A DNA stretch of 64,000 nucleotides from Deltaproteobacteria bacterium (GTDB taxonomy: Bacteria > BMS3Abin14), in NCBI GenBank assembly GCA_013151915.1, contig JAADHJ010000028.1, positions 1-64,000 of the forward strand, in the 5' to 3' direction. The first letter of the stretch is position 1, and every line of letters starts with the position of its first letter. The notes beneath the pieces are model-generated. The model was not told the DNA's origin, did no database searches, and saw only the letters and a program-made list of their open reading frames with translations. Below are positions 28,606 through 59,944 of the stretch, piece by piece. The translations under genes and the position numbers were made by a program.

Positions 28606-28680
28606 TTCTGGACTCTGGACTTTAGACCCTGGACTCTGGACTCCGCGACTCTGGACTCCGCGACTCTGGACTCTGGACTA
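28606..28680. repeat. 7-bp tandem repeat array (ctctgga type)
   Basis: About ten units of the heptamer CTCTGGA or close variants (tctggactctggac, ccctggactctgg, ctccgcgactctgg). The register stays at 7 bp through most of the array. It lies in the cysE-to-HhH gap of 276 bp, where no gene is seen apart from the cysE promoter. Confidence 0.75.
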
Positions 28681-29324: not shown

Positions 29325-29370
29325 GGTCCAGAGTCCAGAGTCCAGAGTCGCGGAGTCCAGAGTCCAGAGG
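29325..29370. repeat. 7-bp tandem repeat array (gtccaga type)
   Basis: Six to seven units of GTCCAGA with one interruption (gtcgcgga). This is the reverse complement of the ctctgga array at 28606-28680. It lies upstream of the helix-hairpin-helix gene. Confidence 0.7.
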
Positions 29371-29411: not shown

Positions 29412-29444
29412 CAAAAAAAAACCGCCCCGTTTTATGGGGCGGCT
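29412..29444 (-). terminator. Rho-independent terminator of the respiratory operon
   Basis: On the minus strand: AAGCCGCCCC, loop ATAAAA, CGGGGCGG, then nine T. A GC-rich 7-8 bp stem with a T tract, 24 bp after the stop of the NrfD gene at 29468. Confidence 0.9.
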
Positions 29445-29467
29445 TGAATGTTCCGGCGGAAGAAGCT

Positions 29468-30682
29468 TTACTCTGTGTAGCCTTTCGAATAGTCCGCCGT
29501 CTCCTTGAGCTTCCTGGTCTGCTCTTCCGAGAATTTGAACATCGGCAGAAGCCACTCGGCAACGAAGATGAAAACAATGGGGACGATCATGATGAAGATA
29601 GCGGTGGTAATACTCTCCCTCCCGAACAGTTCCGGACGGTACGCCTGCCGCATGCCGGCCAGGGACTTCGAGATCATCTGACCCCCGATGACGACATTCC
29701 ATCTCATGGCAAAGACCTGGATAAGGAGAAGGGACGCTGCTGTGAACGAAAGGGTGTTGGCTACCTTATCGCCCATATTCCTGTCCAAAAGGACTATGAT
29801 CATGAGAAGAATGAACGGGATAAGCACCCCCATGATCATCTGGATACCGATATAGGAAAGGGCCAAGGGCCCGGTAAGCAGCTGCCGGATGATCTCCCAT
29901 TCCTCGGCTTTCTCATAAGCCAGGGTGATGATCTCCAGCATTTCCAGGGACGCGGTAATGATGAGAAACAGCCACAGCCAGCGAACCATGGTGCCGATGC
30001 ATGCCCGGTCGATGACCAACCCCTTGAGCTTCATCGCAACCTGATACATCACTATCAGGGCCGCGATTCCGGAGACAACGGCCGAGAATATGAAGATGAT
30101 GGGCATCAGGGGTGTGGACCACCAGGGATTGGACTTGAGCGCCCCGAAAAGGAATCCGACATACCCGTGGAGCAGGAAAGCAGCGGGAATACCGATGGCC
30201 GCCAGGAACTTGACCGCCCTCCTGTCTATCTGCTGGGCCTCCTCCGAAATATCGTAGACCCCAAGAGCCAGGAGCTTATAGATCCACTGTTTCAGGCCAC
30301 GGGACCTTCTTGCATAGGTTACGATATCCTTCCGGTACACCAGCCAGACCTCGAACAGGAGAATGATCATGTATCCACCGTAAAAATAACCGAATCCGGC
30401 CATGGCGGAGGTGAAGTTCGGGGTTATCATGACATTAATTCCCCGTAGCGGATGGCCCAGGTGGAGCAGAAGGGGCCATGTCGCCACGAGCAGAAATGCC
30501 AGGGAAGCTATGAGGGCAAACCGGGCAATGGGCTTGAGGGATTCAAACTCGAATACGTGGTAGAGGGAAGACACGATGAAGGCGCCTGCCACCAGCCCTG
30601 TGACATAGGGATAAAGGACGATCATCAACGACCAAAGGATGTGAAGGTCGTTGGGAAATACGTAGCCTAGTACCTCATGCAT
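29468..30682 (-). CDS. NrfD/PsrC-type membrane quinone-interacting subunit (module 2)
   Basis: A 404-residue protein with about ten transmembrane helices, of the NrfD/PsrC/HybB family that exchanges electrons and protons with quinones. It starts MHEVLGYVFPNDLHILWSLM; conserved features include LGHPLRG near 89 and a charged HGYVGFLFG loop. The start overlaps the FeS gene stop (TGATG) and has AAGGAGG upstream. With the FeS protein (30682) and tetrahaem cytochrome (31518) it forms a complete cytochrome/FeS/NrfD module, probably a quinol oxidase or quinone reductase facing the periplasm. No molybdopterin catalytic subunit lies in the cluster. It is followed by a terminator. Confidence 0.88.
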   Translation of the reverse strand: MHEVLGYVFPNDLHILWSLMIVLYPYVTGLVAGAFIVSSLYHVFEFESLKPIARFALIASLAFLLVATWPLLLHLGHPLRGINVMITPNFTSAMAGFGYFYGGYMIILLFEVWLVYRKDIVTYARRSRGLKQWIYKLLALGVYDISEEAQQIDRRAVKFLAAIGIPAAFLLHGYVGFLFGALKSNPWWSTPLMPIIFIFSAVVSGIAALIVMYQVAMKLKGLVIDRACIGTMVRWLWLFLIITASLEMLEIITLAYEKAEEWEIIRQLLTGPLALSYIGIQMIMGVLIPFILLMIIVLLDRNMGDKVANTLSFTAASLLLIQVFAMRWNVVIGGQMISKSLAGMRQAYRPELFGRESITTAIFIMIVPIVFIFVAEWLLPMFKFSEEQTRKLKETADYSKGYTE

Positions 30683-31473
30683 CAGCGGACCTCCTTGTCT
30701 AGTCCGATATAGTAGCATTTCGGTTTGGTCAACATCTGCGGCTGGAGAACACCGATCCTTTCAGTGTCAATGATATGCCTCACAGGATCATAGGGGTCCT
30801 TGACATCACCGAACATCCTGGTCCCGGTGGGACAGGCCTGGACGCAGGCCGGTCTCAACCCCCTGGAAATACGGTGATAACACCAGGTGCATTTGTCAGC
30901 CGTTTTAGTTCTGGGGTTAAGGAATCGGCTGGCATAGGGACAGGCCTGAACGCAGTAGCCACACCCCATGCACCGTTCGCCATCCACGAGAACCAACCCG
31001 TCGGGGGAGAGGTAGGTCGCACTGAAGGGACAGACCTGAACGCATGGGGTCTGGGCGCAGTGATTGCACATTTTGGGAACGTAATAGGCCTTGGACACGC
31101 CCTCGGTTCCAGCGGTGCTGGAGGGGAACCCGTAAAGGCCTCCATCGGGGGAATCAATCTCGACCGGCCGGTCGCGACCCTTCTGGTAACGCTCCACCCA
31201 GGTCCGGTAGAACTCGTCGGGCACATCATTTTCCTTCTTGCACGCCCTGACGCAGGACCCGCAGCCGATACACTTTTTCAGATCTATGACGTAGGAGAAT
31301 AAATGAGCAAACGGATCATACCCATCGGGAAAGCCCCCAGGCTGCATATCCGTCGCCGCCGATGCAGCTTTAAGTTTCCCCGGAGCAAAGAGGGAAATGA
31401 CGGACGACGTGGCCCCGACAATGGTAACACCGATCGCCGCCCGCAAGAAACTTCGTCTACTCAGATCTTTCAT
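30682..31473 (-). CDS. Tat-exported four-cluster ferredoxin subunit (module 2)
   Basis: A 263-residue periplasmic electron carrier of the HybA/NrfC/DsrO type. The twin-arginine signal is SRRSFLRAA (residues 5-13). Four cluster motifs follow: CIGCGSCVRAC, CNHCAQTPCVQVCP, CMGCGYCVQACP and CTWCYHR...CVQACP. It would take electrons from the NrfD subunit encoded right downstream and pass them to the tetrahaem cytochrome encoded upstream. It begins 45 bp after that cytochrome gene. Confidence 0.9.
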   Translation of the reverse strand: MKDLSRRSFLRAAIGVTIVGATSSVISLFAPGKLKAASAATDMQPGGFPDGYDPFAHLFSYVIDLKKCIGCGSCVRACKKENDVPDEFYRTWVERYQKGRDRPVEIDSPDGGLYGFPSSTAGTEGVSKAYYVPKMCNHCAQTPCVQVCPFSATYLSPDGLVLVDGERCMGCGYCVQACPYASRFLNPRTKTADKCTWCYHRISRGLRPACVQACPTGTRMFGDVKDPYDPVRHIIDTERIGVLQPQMLTKPKCYYIGLDKEVR

Positions 31474-31517: not shown

Positions 31518-32030
31518 CTATATCTTGGGGTCATGAGGATCATGACATTCCATACACACGTTGGGACCAGGTTCGACGCCCATCTCCTTAAGGTGCTGGA
31601 CCACCTCAACTGTTGGAAAACCCTTGGGTTTTGCCGGCTGGGCATCGTGGCATTTGATGCACAGGTCCTGAGCGGAATGGATCTCCATTGGTGCGGTTCT
31701 TTTAAATTGGCTGGGATTTTTCATGAACGCCTCGATGCTGGGATAATCCACGTGAGTTCTCAATGGGCCGTGACATGTCTCGCAGTTGATGACCCGGTGA
31801 GGAGTCTTAGCGATATTCTTGACCCGCTCCGCATGACATGGAGCGCAGGACTCAGGTCCGATACCGTGATTGGGTACACGGACGTTCATCTGTTCGGCAA
31901 GGTTGGCCCCCCTGAAGTGGCCGTATTCCCCAAAGGTATCAGGCACCAGAAGCCCGCGGCCAAGCAGATATCCGAGGGAAAGTACGAGCAAGATAAGCAC
32001 GGCCCGCCACAAATGTTTGCTGTGTTCCAT
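31518..32030 (-). CDS. Membrane-anchored tetrahaem cytochrome c (module 2)
   Basis: A 170-residue protein: an uncleaved-looking N-terminal anchor (about 8-28), then four haem motifs CAPCH (62-66), CETCH (83-87), CIKCH (124-128) and CMECH (159-163). His residues at 55, 78, 93 and 118 could serve as distal ligands. It lies 33 bp after the 28-residue repeat protein and 45 bp before the FeS subunit. It is probably the periplasmic electron exit of module 2. Confidence 0.9.
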   Translation of the reverse strand: MEHSKHLWRAVLILLVLSLGYLLGRGLLVPDTFGEYGHFRGANLAEQMNVRVPNHGIGPESCAPCHAERVKNIAKTPHRVINCETCHGPLRTHVDYPSIEAFMKNPSQFKRTAPMEIHSAQDLCIKCHDAQPAKPKGFPTVEVVQHLKEMGVEPGPNVCMECHDPHDPKI

Positions 32031-32063: not shown

Positions 32064-32651
32064 TTATTCACCTGGGGGATGATTTTCATTCTCTCCATAG
32101 AGATCATCTGAAGAAAAAAGCCACTTCAGAAAACCCTCCCCGGCGAACCGGGTGGCGGAGGGAACCATAACAGGCTCTTCTTCAAGCCTTTCATCCGACA
32201 AAAGCCATCCGGCAAAACCGTGCCGGCCGAAACGGTTAACAGGGGGAACCACAGCAGGCTCTTCCTCAAGCCTTTCGTCCGACAAAAGCCATCCGGCAAA
32301 ACCGTGCCGGCCGAAACGGTCAACAAGGGGAACCACAGCAGGCTCTTCCTCAAGCCTTTCGTCCGACAAGAGCCATCCGGCAAAACCGTGCCGGCCGAAA
32401 CGGGCGGTGGGAGGAAGCATGGCAGGCTCTTCTTCAAGCCTTTCACCTGAAAAGATCCACCCGAGAAAGCTCCTCCGGCCGAAACGGCACTCACGTGGGA
32501 GGGCTTCCGCTTCGTAAGGGAGGGAATCCGGGGAAAGAACCCAGGAGACAAAACCGTGCCGGCCGAAAGGGGACCGCTTACGGGCGATGGGATTTTCCGT
32601 CTGAAGTTTCTCCGGTGAGAGTACCCATCGAATAAATTGAACTAATTTCAT
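32064..32651 (-). CDS. Protein of seven 28-residue RFGRHGF-WLLS-ERLEEEP repeats, function unknown
   Basis: A 195-residue protein made only of seven tandem units. The consensus is RFGRHGFAGWLLSDERLEEEP plus about seven variable residues. Unit 1 (MKLVQFIRWVLSPEKL...) and unit 7 (RFAGEGFLKWLFSSDDL...) are divergent caps; units 4-6 are nearly identical. Each unit has a basic, aromatic half and an acidic half with Pro, so it could form an amphipathic helix lying on the membrane or a protein-protein scaffold. There is no signal peptide, Cys or transmembrane helix. It sits between NrfD of module 1 and the cytochrome of module 2. The ATG at 32651 lacks a ribosome site; a TTG at 32675 behind AAGGAG is the alternative. 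No family recognised. Confidence 0.8.
   Translation of the reverse strand: MKLVQFIRWVLSPEKLQTENPIARKRSPFGRHGFVSWVLSPDSLPYEAEALPRECRFGRRSFLGWIFSGERLEEEPAMLPPTARFGRHGFAGWLLSDERLEEEPAVVPLVDRFGRHGFAGWLLSDERLEEEPAVVPPVNRFGRHGFAGWLLSDERLEEEPVMVPSATRFAGEGFLKWLFSSDDLYGENENHPPGE
32155..32447. repeat. 84-bp tandem DNA repeats within the repeat-protein gene
   Basis: The DNA coding for units 4, 5 and 6 (and in part 3) is nearly identical at 84-bp spacing, e.g. 'aagcctttcgtccgacaaaa' then 'gccatccggcaaaaccgtgc' recurs near 32190, 32270 and 32355. Identity at silent positions points to recent duplication or ongoing unequal exchange, so copy number may vary between strains. Confidence 0.85.
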
Positions 32652-32732
32652 CGGGTTTAGGTTTAAACGTATCAAGGAATCGAAGGCTCCTTAAAGCTTG
32701 TTTAGCATACCCTTAGAACGACAGCGTTAATG

Positions 32733-32888: not shown

Positions 32889-34157
32889 TCACAACTCGGC
32901 GCTTGTCACCGATCCACGGATGGCCGCTGATTCGCCGACCGTTGCGGCACCTCGGGCAAATCTCAGCCTGCCCGTGTAGATCGGGATCGCGACCTTCAGC
33001 ATAAGGGTATAGAGAAGCGCTCCCGTCGCCCAGACCCCAAGGGAAACAAAGATCTCGGAATGGGTGGGAAAGTATTCGTAAATCTCACCCAGGGTCCCCG
33101 GGATGAAACCCGGCACCACCAGGCCCATTCCCTTTTCGATATATACGCCGATGATAACCAGCACGCACGCCATGTTAAGGGTCACCACATTATTCCTCGC
33201 CCTGGGGGAGAGGAAGAGGAAAAAGGCTATCAGGTTGAATATCAGGGCCGTCCAGAGCCACGGTACCAGTCCATGGTATCCGTGAAGGCCGAAATACAGG
33301 TATTGGAAAGGCGCCAGCTGAGCGGTGCCCGAATAGAACTCCTTGAACATCTCGGCACCGAAGAGGAAGAGGTTAAACCCCATGGCATAGGCGATCAGTT
33401 CGGCGATCTTTGAGATGGCACTGTCCTCGATCTCCAGATCGGAGATCTTCCGGAGAACCTGGAATATGATGATCATGAGCGCAGGTCCGGAGCAGAAGGC
33501 TGAAGCCAGGAAACGGGGCGCGAGGATGGACGCGTTCCAGAAGGAGCGTGCAGGCAGGCCGTTGTAGAGGAACGCCGTGACCGTATGGATACTTATGGCC
33601 CAGGGTATGGAGAGAATCACCAGGGGTTTCACGACGGCCATACTGTATTCCATGTTATGGGCGATGCGGTACATGACATAAAAAACAACTGCAATGTTTA
33701 AAACCAAATAGCCGTTCAGGACCAGTACATCCCACGCCAGGAGAGAGCTTGGAAAGTTCATTGTGCCGAAGAACGGAAAAAGATGCCAGACCCTGTCGGG
33801 ACGGCCAAGATCGACCATGATGAACATGATGCACATGAAGATAGCAGCAATGGCCAACATCTCGCTGAAGAGCACGATCTCCTTGATGGGCTTGAAGTTG
33901 TAGATGTATGCCGGGATGACCAGGAGCACGGCCGCAGCGGCGACACCCACCAGAAACGTGAAGTTCGAAAGGTAGAACCCCCAGGAAACCTGATCGCGCA
34001 TGGCCGTGACGATAAGCCCTCTTTTCAACTGAATGACGTAGGTGCTCCACCCCAGGAGCATGAAGAAACCGAGGATGCCGATCCAGATGTAATAGCCGCG
34101 GCTGCCCTTTACGATCTGCTTGAGGGCGATAAAGAAATGTTTTATTTGATCCATCAT
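32889..34157 (-). CDS. NrfD/DsrP-type membrane quinone-interacting subunit (module 1)
   Basis: A 422-residue polytopic protein with about ten helices, of the NrfD/HybB/DsrP family. Recognisable parts: WGFYLSNFTFLVGVAAAAVL, MFIMVDLGRPDRVWHLF and EKGMGLVVPGFIPGTLGEIYEY, the last being typical of DsrP/HybB-like members. It would exchange electrons with the quinone pool and with the FeS subunit encoded 18 bp upstream. It differs clearly from the module 2 NrfD, so the two modules are not a recent copy of each other. Confidence 0.88.
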   Translation of the reverse strand: MMDQIKHFFIALKQIVKGSRGYYIWIGILGFFMLLGWSTYVIQLKRGLIVTAMRDQVSWGFYLSNFTFLVGVAAAAVLLVIPAYIYNFKPIKEIVLFSEMLAIAAIFMCIMFIMVDLGRPDRVWHLFPFFGTMNFPSSLLAWDVLVLNGYLVLNIAVVFYVMYRIAHNMEYSMAVVKPLVILSIPWAISIHTVTAFLYNGLPARSFWNASILAPRFLASAFCSGPALMIIIFQVLRKISDLEIEDSAISKIAELIAYAMGFNLFLFGAEMFKEFYSGTAQLAPFQYLYFGLHGYHGLVPWLWTALIFNLIAFFLFLSPRARNNVVTLNMACVLVIIGVYIEKGMGLVVPGFIPGTLGEIYEYFPTHSEIFVSLGVWATGALLYTLMLKVAIPIYTGRLRFARGAATVGESAAIRGSVTSAEL

Positions 34158-34175: not shown

Positions 34176-35108
34176 CTATGTGGCGAAGAAGTAGAAAAAC
34201 TTTGGATACGTATTCAGATCCTCTTTGAGCCTGAAGATACGCTTATTTTCGATGCAGTAGCGAATCTCGCTCTTCGGATCCAGCATGTTTCCGAATTTCC
34301 TCGCCCCCACCGGGCAGATCTCCACGCAGGCCGGATAGCGGCCGGGTGTATTTCTTGTCCTCTGTATACAGAAGGTGCACTTCTCGACAATACCGTGATA
34401 CCGGGGCCTGTTCCCCAGGTAATGGGTCTTGGTGTTGATCTCATCTTTCGGAATACCCGGACCGGTCCAGTTGAAATGTCTCGCTCCATAAGGACAGGCC
34501 GCCATGCAGTAGCGGCAGCCGATGCACCAGTTGTAATCCACAACTATAATTCCATCGTCCTCCTTCCAGGTAGCCTGGGTGGGACACGCACTGACACAGG
34601 GCGGGTTTTCGCACTGCTGGCACTGGGTGGGCATATAGAAGTACCCCTCCTCCGGAACCTTGTCGGGATTATAATACTTATCGGCGTTCTCAAGATCGTT
34701 GACCCATTTGTCGCCTTTTTTGAACCGCAGAACCGTAATCCACTGGATCTGAGGATCCCTCGACTGATTGTTCTCGCCGACACAGGCATATACACAACGG
34801 CGGCACCCGATACACCTGGACAGATCAAGACCGTAACCGAACAGGACTCCCGAAAGCGGTTTGTTGGCGGAAATATCGATATCCACGCCGTACTTCTCGG
34901 CATATTCCTGTTCAAGGCGCTTGAGGACCTTTTTCAACTCCTTGTCGTTCATTTCACGGAAGTGCTTCTGAAAAAAAGCATCCCAGATCGAGGCGTCAGC
35001 GTCCCGGGACGGCAAAGCCAGGGCAACGGATCCTAAGGCCGCTCCCTTCAGGAAGCTCCGCCTGGCAACCTTGTGTTCGCGCGGGGGGCTGATTTTGGGT
35101 TCCTTCAT
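34176..35108 (-). CDS. Tat-exported four-cluster ferredoxin subunit (module 1)
   Basis: A 310-residue HybA/DsrO-type protein. Twin-arginine signal ARRSFLKGAALGSVALA is at about 15-31. Cluster motifs: CIGCRRCVYAC, CQQCENPPCVSACP, CIGCRYCMAACP and CTFCIQR...CVEICP. An insert of about 45 residues between signal and first cluster (charged, helical) is not present in the module 2 counterpart. It lies 12 bp after the tetrahaem cytochrome gene and 18 bp before NrfD. Confidence 0.9.
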   Translation of the reverse strand: MKEPKISPPREHKVARRSFLKGAALGSVALALPSRDADASIWDAFFQKHFREMNDKELKKVLKRLEQEYAEKYGVDIDISANKPLSGVLFGYGLDLSRCIGCRRCVYACVGENNQSRDPQIQWITVLRFKKGDKWVNDLENADKYYNPDKVPEEGYFYMPTQCQQCENPPCVSACPTQATWKEDDGIIVVDYNWCIGCRYCMAACPYGARHFNWTGPGIPKDEINTKTHYLGNRPRYHGIVEKCTFCIQRTRNTPGRYPACVEICPVGARKFGNMLDPKSEIRYCIENKRIFRLKEDLNTYPKFFYFFAT

Positions 35109-35120
35109 GGCGTTGGGCCT

Positions 35121-35684
35121 CTACTTGATATCCGCCGGTTTTATGGGCGGTGGTTTTGGAGTGATGGGTTTGAACCTGGGGTTGTGCGGATTATGGCACT
35201 GGACACATAGACGGTAGACCTTCTTACCGTTCCATTCCCCCGTGCGTTTCCCGTGAACGCCCGCCTTCCAATCCCTGAAGATCGTGCCGTGGCACTGGCC
35301 GCAGAGATAATAGGACTCCTCGAAGGTGACCAGTTTACCGCTTGCAAGGCGCAGATAGTCCCGGTCATCAGGGTTGTGGCAGTCCAGACACCAACGTTGC
35401 TTCTCAGCATGGTTGATCAGTTTTATGTTCTCGTGGAACTCCGTGAGTTCACGCCTGTTGGGGTTGGTCTTCTGGTCGGCGTGGCAATCGGAACACGGAA
35501 AAATACCCTCCGATAACGGTGGAGGGGTTATAAAGAGGTTTGGGATGGGCCGTTCCACCTCTTCGGGGGGGTTGGCTTCGGCAACGGTTTTGCCGGAATG
35601 GATCTTGGAGTCCGAACGGGCCGGCAACGGCGCCATCATCAGGAACACACCAAGAAGGACCGTTAGAACCTGGATTTTTCTCAT
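35121..35684 (-). CDS. Secreted tetrahaem cytochrome c (module 1)
   Basis: A 187-residue periplasmic cytochrome with a signal peptide (1 to about 24, ending ARS) and four motifs: CSDCH (64-68), CLDCH (99-103), CGQCH (128-132) and CVQCH (160-164). Its C-terminus is Pro/Lys-rich. Spacing differs from the module 2 cytochrome. It is the first gene of the seven-gene respiratory run 35684 to 29468. The ATG at 35684 has GGGGAGGAAC upstream; the longer frame to 35786 has no signal for translation. Confidence 0.88.
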   Translation of the reverse strand: MRKIQVLTVLLGVFLMMAPLPARSDSKIHSGKTVAEANPPEEVERPIPNLFITPPPLSEGIFPCSDCHADQKTNPNRRELTEFHENIKLINHAEKQRWCLDCHNPDDRDYLRLASGKLVTFEESYYLCGQCHGTIFRDWKAGVHGKRTGEWNGKKVYRLCVQCHNPHNPRFKPITPKPPPIKPADIK

Positions 35685-35942
35685 GGTAGTTCCTCCCCGC
35701 GGGGAGCGCCGGCACAATGCCCCGGTGGCAACCGGATACCGCTCCAACAGAAAAAACTCCTCAAAGGTTGTAATTTTACCACTCATTCATCGCCCAGGCG
35801 AAAATTGCGACGGAACCTGAAAAAACAATAAACCCAGGCACAGCACAAGAGAGTTGCCGTAAAAATGAATTAAATAACAAGCGGATGCATCTGATGCGAC
35901 GTTACAGTGAAACGGGGTAATTCACAGATAAGTTTCGGCGTA

Positions 35943-35978: not shown

Positions 35979-37739
35979 TCAATCTTCGACGTGGCGATGC
36001 CACCTGCTCAGCACTGCGGAACCAAGCGCGGCCGCTACCCCGAAGGACAGGACCCCCAACACAAGAGGAATACCTTTGGTCCCGAACAGGTCGACAATAA
36101 AGACCTTCATGGCGCCTATGACGGTAACTCCCGCCGCGACGTTTCGGACCTCCACATTCCTCCTGCGATACGCTTCCAGGAAGAGCAGGGCGGCCCCGAC
36201 ATTGATGATAATCGACTGGGCGCACCTGAATGCATCCGTTGGGCCTCCCAAAACCACGAAAGCAACGGCCCGTAAGGCCATAAAGGCACCGGTCAGGGAG
36301 ACAAGCAGGAGGATCAGGGCGCTCCTGTCAGACCTGTCAAGCCGGGAAAAAAACAGGGCATGTCGGGGCGGAATGATCCTTCTCGCCCTACGATAGTGGA
36401 AAAATGAAACAGCCGTGATGGAGGCCATTGCGGCAATTGTAACCACAGGTGACGCTCCCGGTGGATTGCCGGTGAGAAGGATGAAAGAGGCGCCCATCAC
36501 CGTTCCCTGGAGAAAGTAGGAAGTGACGCGGGTTCCCGCACTGCTCCACGCCACGGAAAGGTAGGAAAGGCCGTAGGCGGCCAGGGAGAGAACGGCCAGG
36601 GCGATCACGGATTCGCCGGAAAGGTCCCGGAAGGAGATGGCCAGGAGGAAAGCCGCCGGGAAGACCAGTGTATTAATGCCCGATGCACCGTCCTCTCGGC
36701 GTCTGACGATAACAAAAGCCATGCCCATGAGGACGGCTGCGATGAATGTTCCGAAGGCCCCCACCGCCACCATGGTTCCCAGGTCAGACTGCAGGTGGAA
36801 CCTTGCGAGCATGTAGGCCCATGCGGAGGTTAAAGTCGGCAATATGGAATCGAACACCCCCAGCCGTTCCTCCTTCCTCCTTGGAATGCGGAGAAAGGCG
36901 AACCCGACATAGAAAGCGGATATCACCGTCAGGGATGGGATAAACCATACGCTGGAGTATATGCCGTTCAGAACCCCGCCATCCTTTTGGTACGCGAACA
37001 TTTTGTAATCCCATGCCAGGTAGGAAAGCGCGGTCACCGAAAAGGCAACGATCCGGATCCACCGACATTTCGGCAGGTTCACGGCGGAAAAGGCGATAAT
37101 ATTTACCGCGAGGAGAAAGGCGGCGAGATAAAGAAAATTGGGATTGGGAAAATCAATAGGTATCCCGGCCGCGATAATCCCCATTGTACCCACACTGACG
37201 GGAATGGCCGCCCGGTATTTGTGGCTGATTACAGCCATTCCACCTGCCGCTACAACCAGCATGAGGTAGGCGGCAAGGGATGGAATGGAACCGAAGCTGG
37301 AATGCGTTTCGTAGACTACGGAAAAGAGAAGGAGTCCTCCGCTGACACTGAAGATGGGAGCGAAGGAATGGGATTTGGAGTACATGATCAACCCGGTTCC
37401 CTCGAGGAGTGAGGCATAAAGAACCCCGAGGATGGAACCGAAGGTGACCCCGATCATCCCGTTATCCGTCAGTGTTCTCAGGAGAAGGGCAAAAAGGAGA
37501 ATAATACTGACGGCGGTAAACCGCGACAGTACAGCGGCCATCCCGCCCGTTGTCAGCCCTCCAGGCTTTGGTTCCGGGGCTGTTCCTTCCGGCAATGTTA
37601 TGGCGGGTCTGCCGCCCCGGTCTGCCGCCGGAGAGGTTTTTATCGTTTTTTCCATGGCGCTGACCCTTCCGGTCAGCGCCTCCACTTCCCGCGAAAGTTT
37701 TTCGATCCTGCCGGACAGATCCTTCACGTCGTCAGCCAT
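35979..37739 (-). CDS. Large polytopic membrane protein (DUF2339-like)
   Basis: A 586-residue protein: an N-terminal coiled-coil (about 5-35, VKDLSGRIEKLSREVEALT), a Pro/Gly-rich linker, then some 14-15 hydrophobic helices to the end. The layout of an N-terminal coiled coil plus many regularly spaced helices resembles the DUF2339 family, whose role is unknown. No catalytic motif is visible. It starts 21 bp after the 13-haem cytochrome gene, so both are probably one transcript. Confidence 0.65.
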   Translation of the reverse strand: MADDVKDLSGRIEKLSREVEALTGRVSAMEKTIKTSPAADRGGRPAITLPEGTAPEPKPGGLTTGGMAAVLSRFTAVSIILLFALLLRTLTDNGMIGVTFGSILGVLYASLLEGTGLIMYSKSHSFAPIFSVSGGLLLFSVVYETHSSFGSIPSLAAYLMLVVAAGGMAVISHKYRAAIPVSVGTMGIIAAGIPIDFPNPNFLYLAAFLLAVNIIAFSAVNLPKCRWIRIVAFSVTALSYLAWDYKMFAYQKDGGVLNGIYSSVWFIPSLTVISAFYVGFAFLRIPRRKEERLGVFDSILPTLTSAWAYMLARFHLQSDLGTMVAVGAFGTFIAAVLMGMAFVIVRRREDGASGINTLVFPAAFLLAISFRDLSGESVIALAVLSLAAYGLSYLSVAWSSAGTRVTSYFLQGTVMGASFILLTGNPPGASPVVTIAAMASITAVSFFHYRRARRIIPPRHALFFSRLDRSDRSALILLLVSLTGAFMALRAVAFVVLGGPTDAFRCAQSIIINVGAALLFLEAYRRRNVEVRNVAAGVTVIGAMKVFIVDLFGTKGIPLVLGVLSFGVAAALGSAVLSRWHRHVED

Positions 37740-37760: not shown

Positions 37761-39608
37761 TTAATTGAACTTGTGGCAGTCCCCGCAAAATTTTTCGGGG
37801 TTATGATCCGTCCTGTCATCATGGCACTGATAGCAGGTATCCCTGTTGTTCACAACCCATAAGTGGGCCTGGTGACAGGTGGTACAGTCGGCATCTTTGT
37901 GCTCCTCCACCTTCACATGAAGCCCGCCAAGGTCATCGTGGCAATCCGTACATTCCACAAGGGGCCTGACCTTCTGGAGGTCCTGGTGGCAGTCCGAACA
38001 CTCGAAGTCGCTCATGCCTCCATTTTTGGAATAGTGGGTAACGTTCTTCTCCTCGTGGCAGGTGGCGCAGTCCCTTGGCGGAAGCATCCCACCCGTATGG
38101 CAGGTGCTGCAGTTCATGAGAGCATGCTTACCTTTCAGCGCCCAGGGATGCCAGGTTTCCCATTTTGCCCCCGCAGGGTATCCCTCCGCCCAGTGCTTGC
38201 TTGGGCCGCTCTTTGGCATTGTATGGCAGATTGTGCACGTGCGCCGGATGACCTTGCCGTCCTTGCTGACATGTTTGCCGTCGTGGCAACGAAAACAGCC
38301 AGGGGAGTCCCTGTGCCCGATATTGTTGGGATACATCTTCCAGCTGACCTTCATGGACGGGAAGAAGTTCTGGTCGTATATGTACTGAATTGCCTTTATT
38401 GCCTGGTTGATATCGTCGGCTCTGGAGGCCGCCACCTCGGGGTATTTCCGATCGTAAAACGATTTGAGCTTGCTGTCTATCTCCTCGAAGGCCTGTTTCT
38501 TCGTTTTATAATCCCCTACAAGCACCCTTACCCCCTCACGCTTGATATAAGGCAAGGTGTGGTCAATGGTCTCATTCAGGAGAGCCTGGTCCATACTGCG
38601 CTGGGGGGAGTTAAAAATATGCGTCGGCCGGTTGTGGCAAACGACACAGTCCACAAGCCGAATATCCTTATCGCGTCCGCCCCCACTGTTTTCCTTCTCC
38701 TCGTAGTCCTGGAGTTTGTACTCCACCACAGTGCCGTCCGCCTGCTTGTCCCAGACGGTGGGGATTACCTGCTGTCCGGGATCTGCAGCCCTGAAAGTCA
38801 CTTTTTCCTCCGAAAGCATGTGCCAGTGGATGCCGGACCCGACTTCCTCGCTCGAATTCTCGCCCCCTCCAATCTTCACGAGCATGGATACGTCATGCGG
38901 GGTGTTTTTCTCATCAAAACCGAAGTGGGTCCTCACCGTCATCTTGCTGCCGAAGAACTTCTCCGGCCAGTGACATTCCTCGCACGTTTCACGGGCCGGA
39001 CGGAGATGCTCAATGGCCGGCGGGATGGGTTTGGGATAGGTTTTCAGGAGAACGGCGAACAGCTGCCTGGTGCCCGCGAGTTTGGATCTGACGTACCATC
39101 CCGCCCCCGGGCCCACGTGGCATTCCGTGCACAAGACCCTGGCATGGGGAGAGTTCTTCGCTGCGGTCGCCTCGGGAGCCATCACCTGGTGACACAGATC
39201 TCCGCAAAATACCCGCGACTCCGTAAAATGATATGCCTGGTAGGCAATGACCGTCAGGAGGATCACGGCAGACACCGTGCCTGCCATGAAGACAAAGAAC
39301 CTTACCCTGTTCCCCGGATCGTTCAGGTCCAGGACTGGGAATTGCGGTATTTCGTCGGTGTGGCCCCTGCGCCTTCTTTTGTGTTCATCCCACATCCCCC
39401 ACACAATGAGGAGAAAACCTGCCATGAAAGATACGGGCAGGATGAAAAAGAGCAGGACGCCGAAGTATGGCGATGAAAACGTGGCCAGAAAGTCGATGAC
39501 AAGCAGTACGAGAATCGTCAGCGCCGACCCGATGGAGAGAAGCATCCCCAAATAGCTCATGGGATTACGCCACAGGCCTCTCTCAAAGATATTTTTACTT
39601 TCCGCCAT
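37761..39608 (-). CDS. NapC/NirT-type membrane cytochrome c with 13 haem motifs
   Basis: A 615-residue protein with three N-terminal hydrophobic helices (about 20-45, 48-72, 103-125) and a haem-rich periplasmic part. Motifs: CGDLCH at 135 (a CX3CH, not CxxCH), then twelve CxxCH at 160, 209, 321, 438, 458, 500, 514, 537, 553, 575, 592 and 608. The first part (135-215) looks like a NapC/NrfH quinol-oxidising head; the last nine are closely packed like a haem wire. It likely moves electrons from quinol across the periplasm to an unknown acceptor. It lies directly upstream of the many-helix protein and the two-module operon. Confidence 0.88.
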   Translation of the reverse strand: MAESKNIFERGLWRNPMSYLGMLLSIGSALTILVLLVIDFLATFSSPYFGVLLFFILPVSFMAGFLLIVWGMWDEHKRRRRGHTDEIPQFPVLDLNDPGNRVRFFVFMAGTVSAVILLTVIAYQAYHFTESRVFCGDLCHQVMAPEATAAKNSPHARVLCTECHVGPGAGWYVRSKLAGTRQLFAVLLKTYPKPIPPAIEHLRPARETCEECHWPEKFFGSKMTVRTHFGFDEKNTPHDVSMLVKIGGGENSSEEVGSGIHWHMLSEEKVTFRAADPGQQVIPTVWDKQADGTVVEYKLQDYEEKENSGGGRDKDIRLVDCVVCHNRPTHIFNSPQRSMDQALLNETIDHTLPYIKREGVRVLVGDYKTKKQAFEEIDSKLKSFYDRKYPEVAASRADDINQAIKAIQYIYDQNFFPSMKVSWKMYPNNIGHRDSPGCFRCHDGKHVSKDGKVIRRTCTICHTMPKSGPSKHWAEGYPAGAKWETWHPWALKGKHALMNCSTCHTGGMLPPRDCATCHEEKNVTHYSKNGGMSDFECSDCHQDLQKVRPLVECTDCHDDLGGLHVKVEEHKDADCTTCHQAHLWVVNNRDTCYQCHDDRTDHNPEKFCGDCHKFN

Positions 39609-47229: not shown

Positions 47230-47341
47230 TGTGGAACTGGGTTCAAAAGAGTTCAAGAGTTCAAGGGTTCAAGGGTTCAAGGTAACTCCGATACCTCTAT
47301 ACTGCTTTCCCCTCTGGACTCTGGACTCTGGACTCTGGACT
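47230..47341. repeat. Short tandem repeats in the leuC-leuD gap
   Basis: Two arrays: 47230-47281 with units of gttcaagg/agttcaag (7-9 bp), and 47311-47341 with four exact units of ctctgga. The arrays fill the gap between two genes whose products form one enzyme. Confidence 0.75.
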
Positions 47342-59621: not shown

Positions 59622-59944
59622 AGTTTCTCCTCCATAATTGTTTCAGTCCAGAGTCCAGAGTCCAGAGTCCAGAGCACTTCGACACTCCTCTACTGCCAAA
59701 CCATCAAACTACCAAACTCCAGAAGAAAGATTAAAGAATTGCTCACCGCCAGAGAGCACGTTGTTTTACCACCCGTTCGTAATGCCGATGGCACGACTCA
59801 CTGGAGACACGGAGGAAACCTTTAAAGTCCTGTGTTAAAAAGCTGCTCTCCCCCTCTGGACTCTGGACGCTGGACGCTGGACTCTGGACTCTTGACTCCG
59901 CGACACTGGACTCTGGACGTTGGACGTTGGACGTTGAACGTTCT
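59622..59944. other. 323-bp gap with two heptad arrays
   Basis: No gene. 59646-59675 has four exact gtccaga units. 59853-59942 has about twelve units running from ctctgga through cgctgga to cgttgga and cgttgaa, so the two heptad variants grade into each other in one array. Between them is a weak repeat (59738-59830) of the 'taccaccc...gactcactggagacacggagg' kind. Confidence 0.7.
59853..59942. repeat. Longest 7-bp tandem repeat array
   Basis: Units in order: ctctgga x2, cgctgga x2, ctctgga, ctcttga, then ctccgcgacactgga, ctctgga, cgttgga x3, cgttgaa. It stays in 7-bp register except at 'ctccgcg'. It abuts the stop of the GGDEF gene within a few bases. Confidence 0.78.

Follow-up and report, generated by a model that had tools for sequence, protein, structure and literature searches.

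Genes and features of the locus

The window analysed here is a 64,000-nt stretch of DNA from a Deltaproteobacteria bacterium (assembly GCA_013151915.1, contig JAADHJ010000028.1, positions 1 to 64,000). An open reading frame (ORF) on its reverse strand, at 32064–32675, encodes a 203-residue product with seven tandem units and, as the original prediction had it, sits between two cytochrome/Fe-S/NrfD modules. The features of the region are, in the order in which they are read on that strand:

35121–35786 (−): multiheme c-type cytochrome of the first module
34176–35108 (−): Fe-S subunit of the first module, DsrO/QrcC-like
32889–34157 (−): NrfD of the first module, DsrP equivalog score 429 against a cutoff of 350; not an obligate partner of the repeat protein (see below)
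32687–32692 (−): Shine-Dalgarno-like AAGGAG, read directly, 11 nt 5′ of the TTG at 32675
32064–32675 (−): repeat gene, seven 28-residue units; probable TTG start, alternative ATG at 32651; N-terminal N-P peptide kept in relatives
32604–32636 (−): unit 1 core FIRWVLSPEKL, in a divergent N-terminal cap
32520–32552 (−): unit 2 core FVSWVLSPDSL
32436–32468 (−): unit 3 core FLGWIFSGERL
32352–32384 (−): unit 4 core FAGWLLSDERL
32268–32300 (−): unit 5 core FAGWLLSDERL
32184–32216 (−): unit 6 core FAGWLLSDERL
32100–32132 (−): unit 7 core FLKWLFSSDDL
31518–32030 (−): tetraheme c-type cytochrome, anchored in the membrane by its N-terminus (MEHSKHLWR...) and conserved as the neighbour downstream of the repeat gene
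30682–31473 (−): Tat-type [4Fe-4S] subunit, TtrB/DsrO-like
29468–30718 (−): NrfD membrane subunit of the repeat-associated clade
29419–29445 (−): strong intrinsic-terminator-like hairpin with a T-run, which would end a four-gene unit

The NrfD subunit of the second module matches PF03916 (1.9e-41), its Fe-S subunit matches Fer4_11 (1.9e-27) together with a weak TAT_signal match below cutoff, and its cytochrome has four CxxCH motifs. With an NrfD, a multi-cluster Tat Fe-S subunit and an anchored cytochrome, these genes form a CISM-like cytochrome/Fe-S/NrfD module. A gap of 34 nt separates the repeat gene from the tetraheme cytochrome gene downstream, which is followed by the Fe-S and then the NrfD genes, and the 213-nt gap upstream of the repeat gene holds a TTGACC-15 nt-TATAGA pair (32759–32733) that is a possible promoter. 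The 34-nt gap, the gene order, the hairpin after NrfD (29445–29419) and the upstream gap support the earlier suggestion that the repeat gene is cotranscribed with the second module.

Several other features were seen nearby. A DUF2339-like membrane protein is encoded upstream of the first module (35979–37739, −), and a similar protein adjoins the repeat gene in genomes G005 and G008. Beside the cluster, a large multiheme cytochrome (37761–39608, −) combines membrane helices at its N-terminus with a part resembling NrfH. Arrays of the heptamer TCTGGAC/GTCCAGA are found at 28607–28679, 29326–29369, 47313–47340, 59646–59673 and 59855–59918, with 17 matches to two tandem heptamers (at most one mismatch) against 0.01 expected by chance.

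Anatomy and coding status of the repeat gene

The seven 11-residue cores begin at residues 14, 42, 70, 98, 126, 154 and 182, a spacing of exactly 28, and TRF run on the window reports an 84-bp array of 3.4 copies with a score of 446, far above chance. The original prediction had described seven 28-residue units, three of them nearly identical in DNA, between divergent caps, and all of this was borne out: units 4, 5 and 6 share 86–96% DNA identity, and the first and last units diverge to 36–56%. It had also claimed that the protein lacks cysteine, which is wrong, since there is a single Cys at C63; we agree by inspection that neither a signal peptide nor a membrane helix is evident. The start had been read at the ATG at 32651. 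We consider the TTG at 32675, 24 bases upstream, to be probably the true start, as it is preceded by AAGGAG at a distance of 11 nt and relatives conserve the N-P peptide that comes before the ATG.

Related repeat genes from other genera of the window's bacterial family are 38–59% identical pairwise. Among the same-family genes pN is well below pS, and dN/dS is 0.23–0.26 within one genus, a pattern of substitution which indicates that the ORF is a real protein-coding gene.

No credible match to a known family was found for the repeat protein in Pfam (best 13.9 bits, cutoff 26.4) or NCBIfam (best 18.9, cutoff 375). When 18 three-unit members were compared with Pfam nothing was better than E = 0.02, a profile of three units (A3, described below) gave a best E of 0.77 against PDB sequences, and a search for plasmid-borne relatives found none. 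The statement that the family is not a recognised one still holds, and as far as the family libraries and literature searched show, the tandem-motif companion protein is undescribed. The downstream cytochrome/Fe-S/NrfD genes are a known kind of module.

Distribution of the family

In the window's own family, 9 of the 12 genomes searched carry the repeat gene, with best E-values from 4e-51 to 7e-9 when the window's own is excluded. Genome G036, from a different family, scored only E = 0.013, yet its repeat gene likewise directly precedes the tetraheme cytochrome gene. A scan of genome contigs with the single repeat protein found nothing, and, given the weak score but identical position in G036, we used the neighbouring cytochrome as the query and read the sequence upstream of it to locate wider relatives. 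Carriers located this way are genomes labelled Deltaproteobacteria (placed in Myxococcota by NCBI), Planctomycetota, Candidatus Schekmanbacteria, Acidobacteria (one bin, L040), Hydrogenedentota, Krumholzibacteriota and the window's own lineage, so that the repeat protein spans at least seven bacterial phyla. In the sister species (G001) the assembly breaks within the repeat array, and the gene is split over two contigs (L019 1–371 and L020 1–371).

Across 111 units from 25 proteins the core consensus is F-L-x-W-[LI]-[LF]-[SA]-x-[ED]-x-L, where the invariance of the acidic residue at position 9 is partly built in because the seed pattern demanded it. The conserved part of each unit is this 11-residue core and the linkers diverge; units follow one another at 28 residues almost without exception in the window's family and mostly at 23–29 over all proteins. 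Counting repeats across strains had been proposed as a check, and the number varies from 2 to 7 units between homologues.

Weak matches from the first search with E above 0.01 (G020, G035, G037, G041, G060, G084 and G088) and the profile-search matches in G299 and G207 were not taken as homologues. Loci L013, L016 and L153, inspected among the weak-match genomes, contain unrelated genes.

Linkage to the tetraheme cytochrome

The A3 profile was searched against whole genomes irrespective of location. On 386 genomes it gave 14 matches with the cytochrome alongside and two weak ones (E 0.002–0.004), which we took as chance; the locus inspected for one of the two holds unrelated genes. Thirteen of the 14 cytochrome-adjacent genomes had supplied rows to the profile and one, G036, had not. 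On 193 genomes of the phylum of G186, a genome whose group seems to resemble Anaeromyxobacteraceae, there were 18 matches, 17 of them new and all immediately upstream of the cytochrome, including one (G559, locus L185) in which the repeats are in frame with it. Two further phyla, named as Hydrogenedentota and Krumholzibacteriota because the matches are letter-identical to loci L047, L106, L065 and L082, added eight non-profile genomes (G623, G624 and six of G036's phylum), all with the repeat gene directly upstream of the cytochrome.

In 26 of 26 genomes outside the profile, then, the repeat gene directly precedes the gene for an N-anchored tetraheme cytochrome, a single genome having the two in frame. 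The gap is usually 0–60 nt, and the operon continues after that cytochrome with the Tat Fe-S subunit and NrfD. This near-exclusive operon linkage answers the question raised with the original prediction, whether profile matches always adjoin NrfD genes, and strongly confirms across phyla that the repeat gene is tied to the respiratory cluster and, within it, to the second module. At L185 (1172–1834) the repeat ORF runs without a stop into the tetraheme cytochrome; it is possible that this is a natural fusion, though it comes from one draft genome and an internal start may be used. Two Planctomycetota loci (L037 101–448 and the L038 4025–5536 region) have the repeat gene in the cluster but separated from the cytochrome by 3–4 kb, and in one of the two it is on the other strand.

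The short or zero gap to the cytochrome start would also suit a translational leader, an ORF whose main effect is to couple or adjust cytochrome translation and whose peptide itself has little role. We consider this most improbable, as an amino-acid motif is kept across phyla while the DNA and length vary, and pN is far below pS.

The spacer idea of the original prediction can also be taken narrowly, as a link between the two neighbouring modules. A bridge between the window's two side-by-side NrfD modules would fit the arrangement here and in G036, where both flank the repeat gene, and a DsrP-like gene lies within a few kilobases in close relatives. Against this, the DsrP-like first module was undetected in G005 and G008 (97–98% complete), both of which have the repeat protein, and it lies hundreds of kilobases away in several f162 genomes. 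These cases weaken the narrow form of the spacer idea to the point that we think it very unlikely, and the DsrP-like module is rejected as an obligate partner.

Confinement to one NrfD clade

A maximum-likelihood tree of 77 NrfD subunits divides, at 100/100 support, into two clades, A with 17 members and B with 60. The repeat gene is present at 16 of the 17 clade A loci, 14 times upstream of the cytochrome and twice, in the Planctomycetota, 3–4 kb away, and at none of the 60 clade B loci (Acidobacteriota, WOR-1 and Verrucomicrobiota). Whole-genome searches of the genomes behind these loci agreed, with matches in 12 of 13 for clade A vs. 0 of 14 for clade B, and on the strength of both counts the repeat protein accompanies one NrfD clade almost universally and defines that lineage. 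The exception is L060, a clade A locus for which no repeat protein was detected anywhere in the genome, suggesting either that the protein is not absolutely required or that in this genome it has diverged too far. Acidobacteriaceae were considered as carriers and rejected by the locus and whole-genome checks. Residues specific to each NrfD clade were uninformative as a map of a docking site because the clades differ everywhere.

The main rival to a scaffolding or tethering role is that of an adaptor in assembly or quality control, with the cores serving as bait or adaptor sites for cytoplasmic machinery: the Tat translocon, a chaperone, a protease or an insertase. The machinery would mature the Tat-exported Fe-S subunit and NrfD, and the repeat protein would stay outside the mature complex. 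Being first in the operon, it would be made just ahead of the cytochrome and the Tat substrate, and its hydrophobic, aromatic short motifs seem to resemble chaperone- or groove-binding peptides. However, the sister NrfD clade has the same subunit types without such a protein, a chaperone-like fold is lacking, and up to seven tandem copies would be unusual for such factors, which leaves this explanation somewhat unlikely.

Motif properties and proposed role

Structure prediction had been put forward as a check. The AlphaFold2 model places a single short helix in each of the seven units, with irregular linkers between them and no overall fold (pTM 0.20); its confidence is low (mean pLDDT 60, ten-row alignment). 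The MinD and FtsA anchors reach a hydrophobic moment (µH) of about 0.55–0.65 and a charge of +3; the cores, at 0.24–0.37 and −1, fall short of the high moment and basic interface of amphipathic membrane-targeting helices. The units had been called amphipathic, a description that these low moments and the negative net charge do little to uphold.

These values bear on another explanation, that of a peripheral membrane protein whose interfacial helices coat the inner leaflet near the complex with no specific protein partner. The helices are rich in Trp, Phe and Leu, and each core is preceded by basic and followed by acidic residues, in favour of this view. Against it, the low moment and negative charge of the cores do not match the known anchors, and recognition of a protein is favoured both by the acidic residue strongly conserved within the core and by the gene's strict association with a single complex. 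We regard a purely membrane-coating role as quite unlikely. In its conservation the core looks more like a protein-docking motif than a membrane-binding helix.

Conserved cores, divergent linkers and 2–7 units are what would be expected of docking motifs, and tandem short motifs on an otherwise unconserved chain, disordered in the low-confidence model, are the anatomy of a multivalent disordered linker. Among 10,601 ORFs of the loci examined there was no second protein with a strong single copy of the motif, and hence no second ligand that would point to a receptor.

Our tentative preference, a real possibility among these readings, is for a disordered cytoplasmic motif array, accessory to the complexes of one NrfD clade, that docks and clusters complexes or their partners. 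The repeat protein would be a largely disordered chain of short linear motifs in which the 11-residue cores would each form a short helix, as the model suggests, and dock on the cytoplasmic face of the complex or on its cytoplasmic partner. The 2–7 copies on flexible linkers could then hold several complexes or partners together. We infer the cytoplasmic location from the lack of a signal peptide and from the genome whose repeats are in frame with the cytochrome: c-type maturation implies that the haem part follows the N-terminal anchor and that the first residues face the cytoplasm, in which case the in-frame repeats at L185 would be cytoplasmic too. Tethering or spacing of respiratory complexes at the inner face of the membrane, as originally proposed, is plausible.

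The protein offers a testable extra component for anaerobic respiratory complexes so far described as cytochrome, Fe-S protein and NrfD only. Should it cluster complexes, it would be a rare example from bacteria of a respiratory membrane organised by a disordered multivalent linker, with copy-number variation as a natural dial for valency. Carriers seem to include Anaeromyxobacter-like myxobacteria, a culturable group.

Comparison with known systems

The nearest described analogues of the downstream module appear to be the quinol dehydrogenases Cbc4 (CbcSTU) from Geobacter and SirCD from Shewanella, which are likewise cytochrome/Fe-S/NrfD modules (PMC11434368). In the parts of that source bearing on these modules, they share with the downstream genes a c-type cytochrome, a CbcT/DsrO-like Fe-S protein and an NrfD-type subunit, in an operon without a molybdenum catalytic subunit; a repeat protein is unmentioned there, and the likeness is one of subunit description rather than of direct sequence comparison.

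DsrMKJOP, QrcABCD and alternative complex III are NrfD-containing respiratory complexes (PMC8076601). The window's first module shares with DsrMKJOP and QrcABCD a DsrP equivalog match and a DsrO/QrcC-like Fe-S protein. Unlike these systems and alternative complex III, it has no DsrMK, QrcAB or Act catalytic partner next to it. We know of no tandem-motif subunit in any of the three and found no paper on one.

EPYC1 of pyrenoids is the same kind of disordered multi-motif chain as CsoS2. CsoS2 of alpha-carboxysomes is a disordered chain of repeated short motifs whose number varies by species and which binds several copies of its partner (PMC10484944). We consider these two proteins, of which CsoS2 is a much-studied precedent for this mode of action, the best mechanistic analogy for the repeat protein and claim no sequence kinship; they bind Rubisco or shell proteins. 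On this analogy there may be a hitherto unrecognised, phylum-crossing family of motif-array scaffolds that gathers NrfD-type oxidoreductases into clusters or condensates from the cytoplasmic side in the manner of CsoS2 and EPYC1, an extension that we hold to be doubtful but conceivable.
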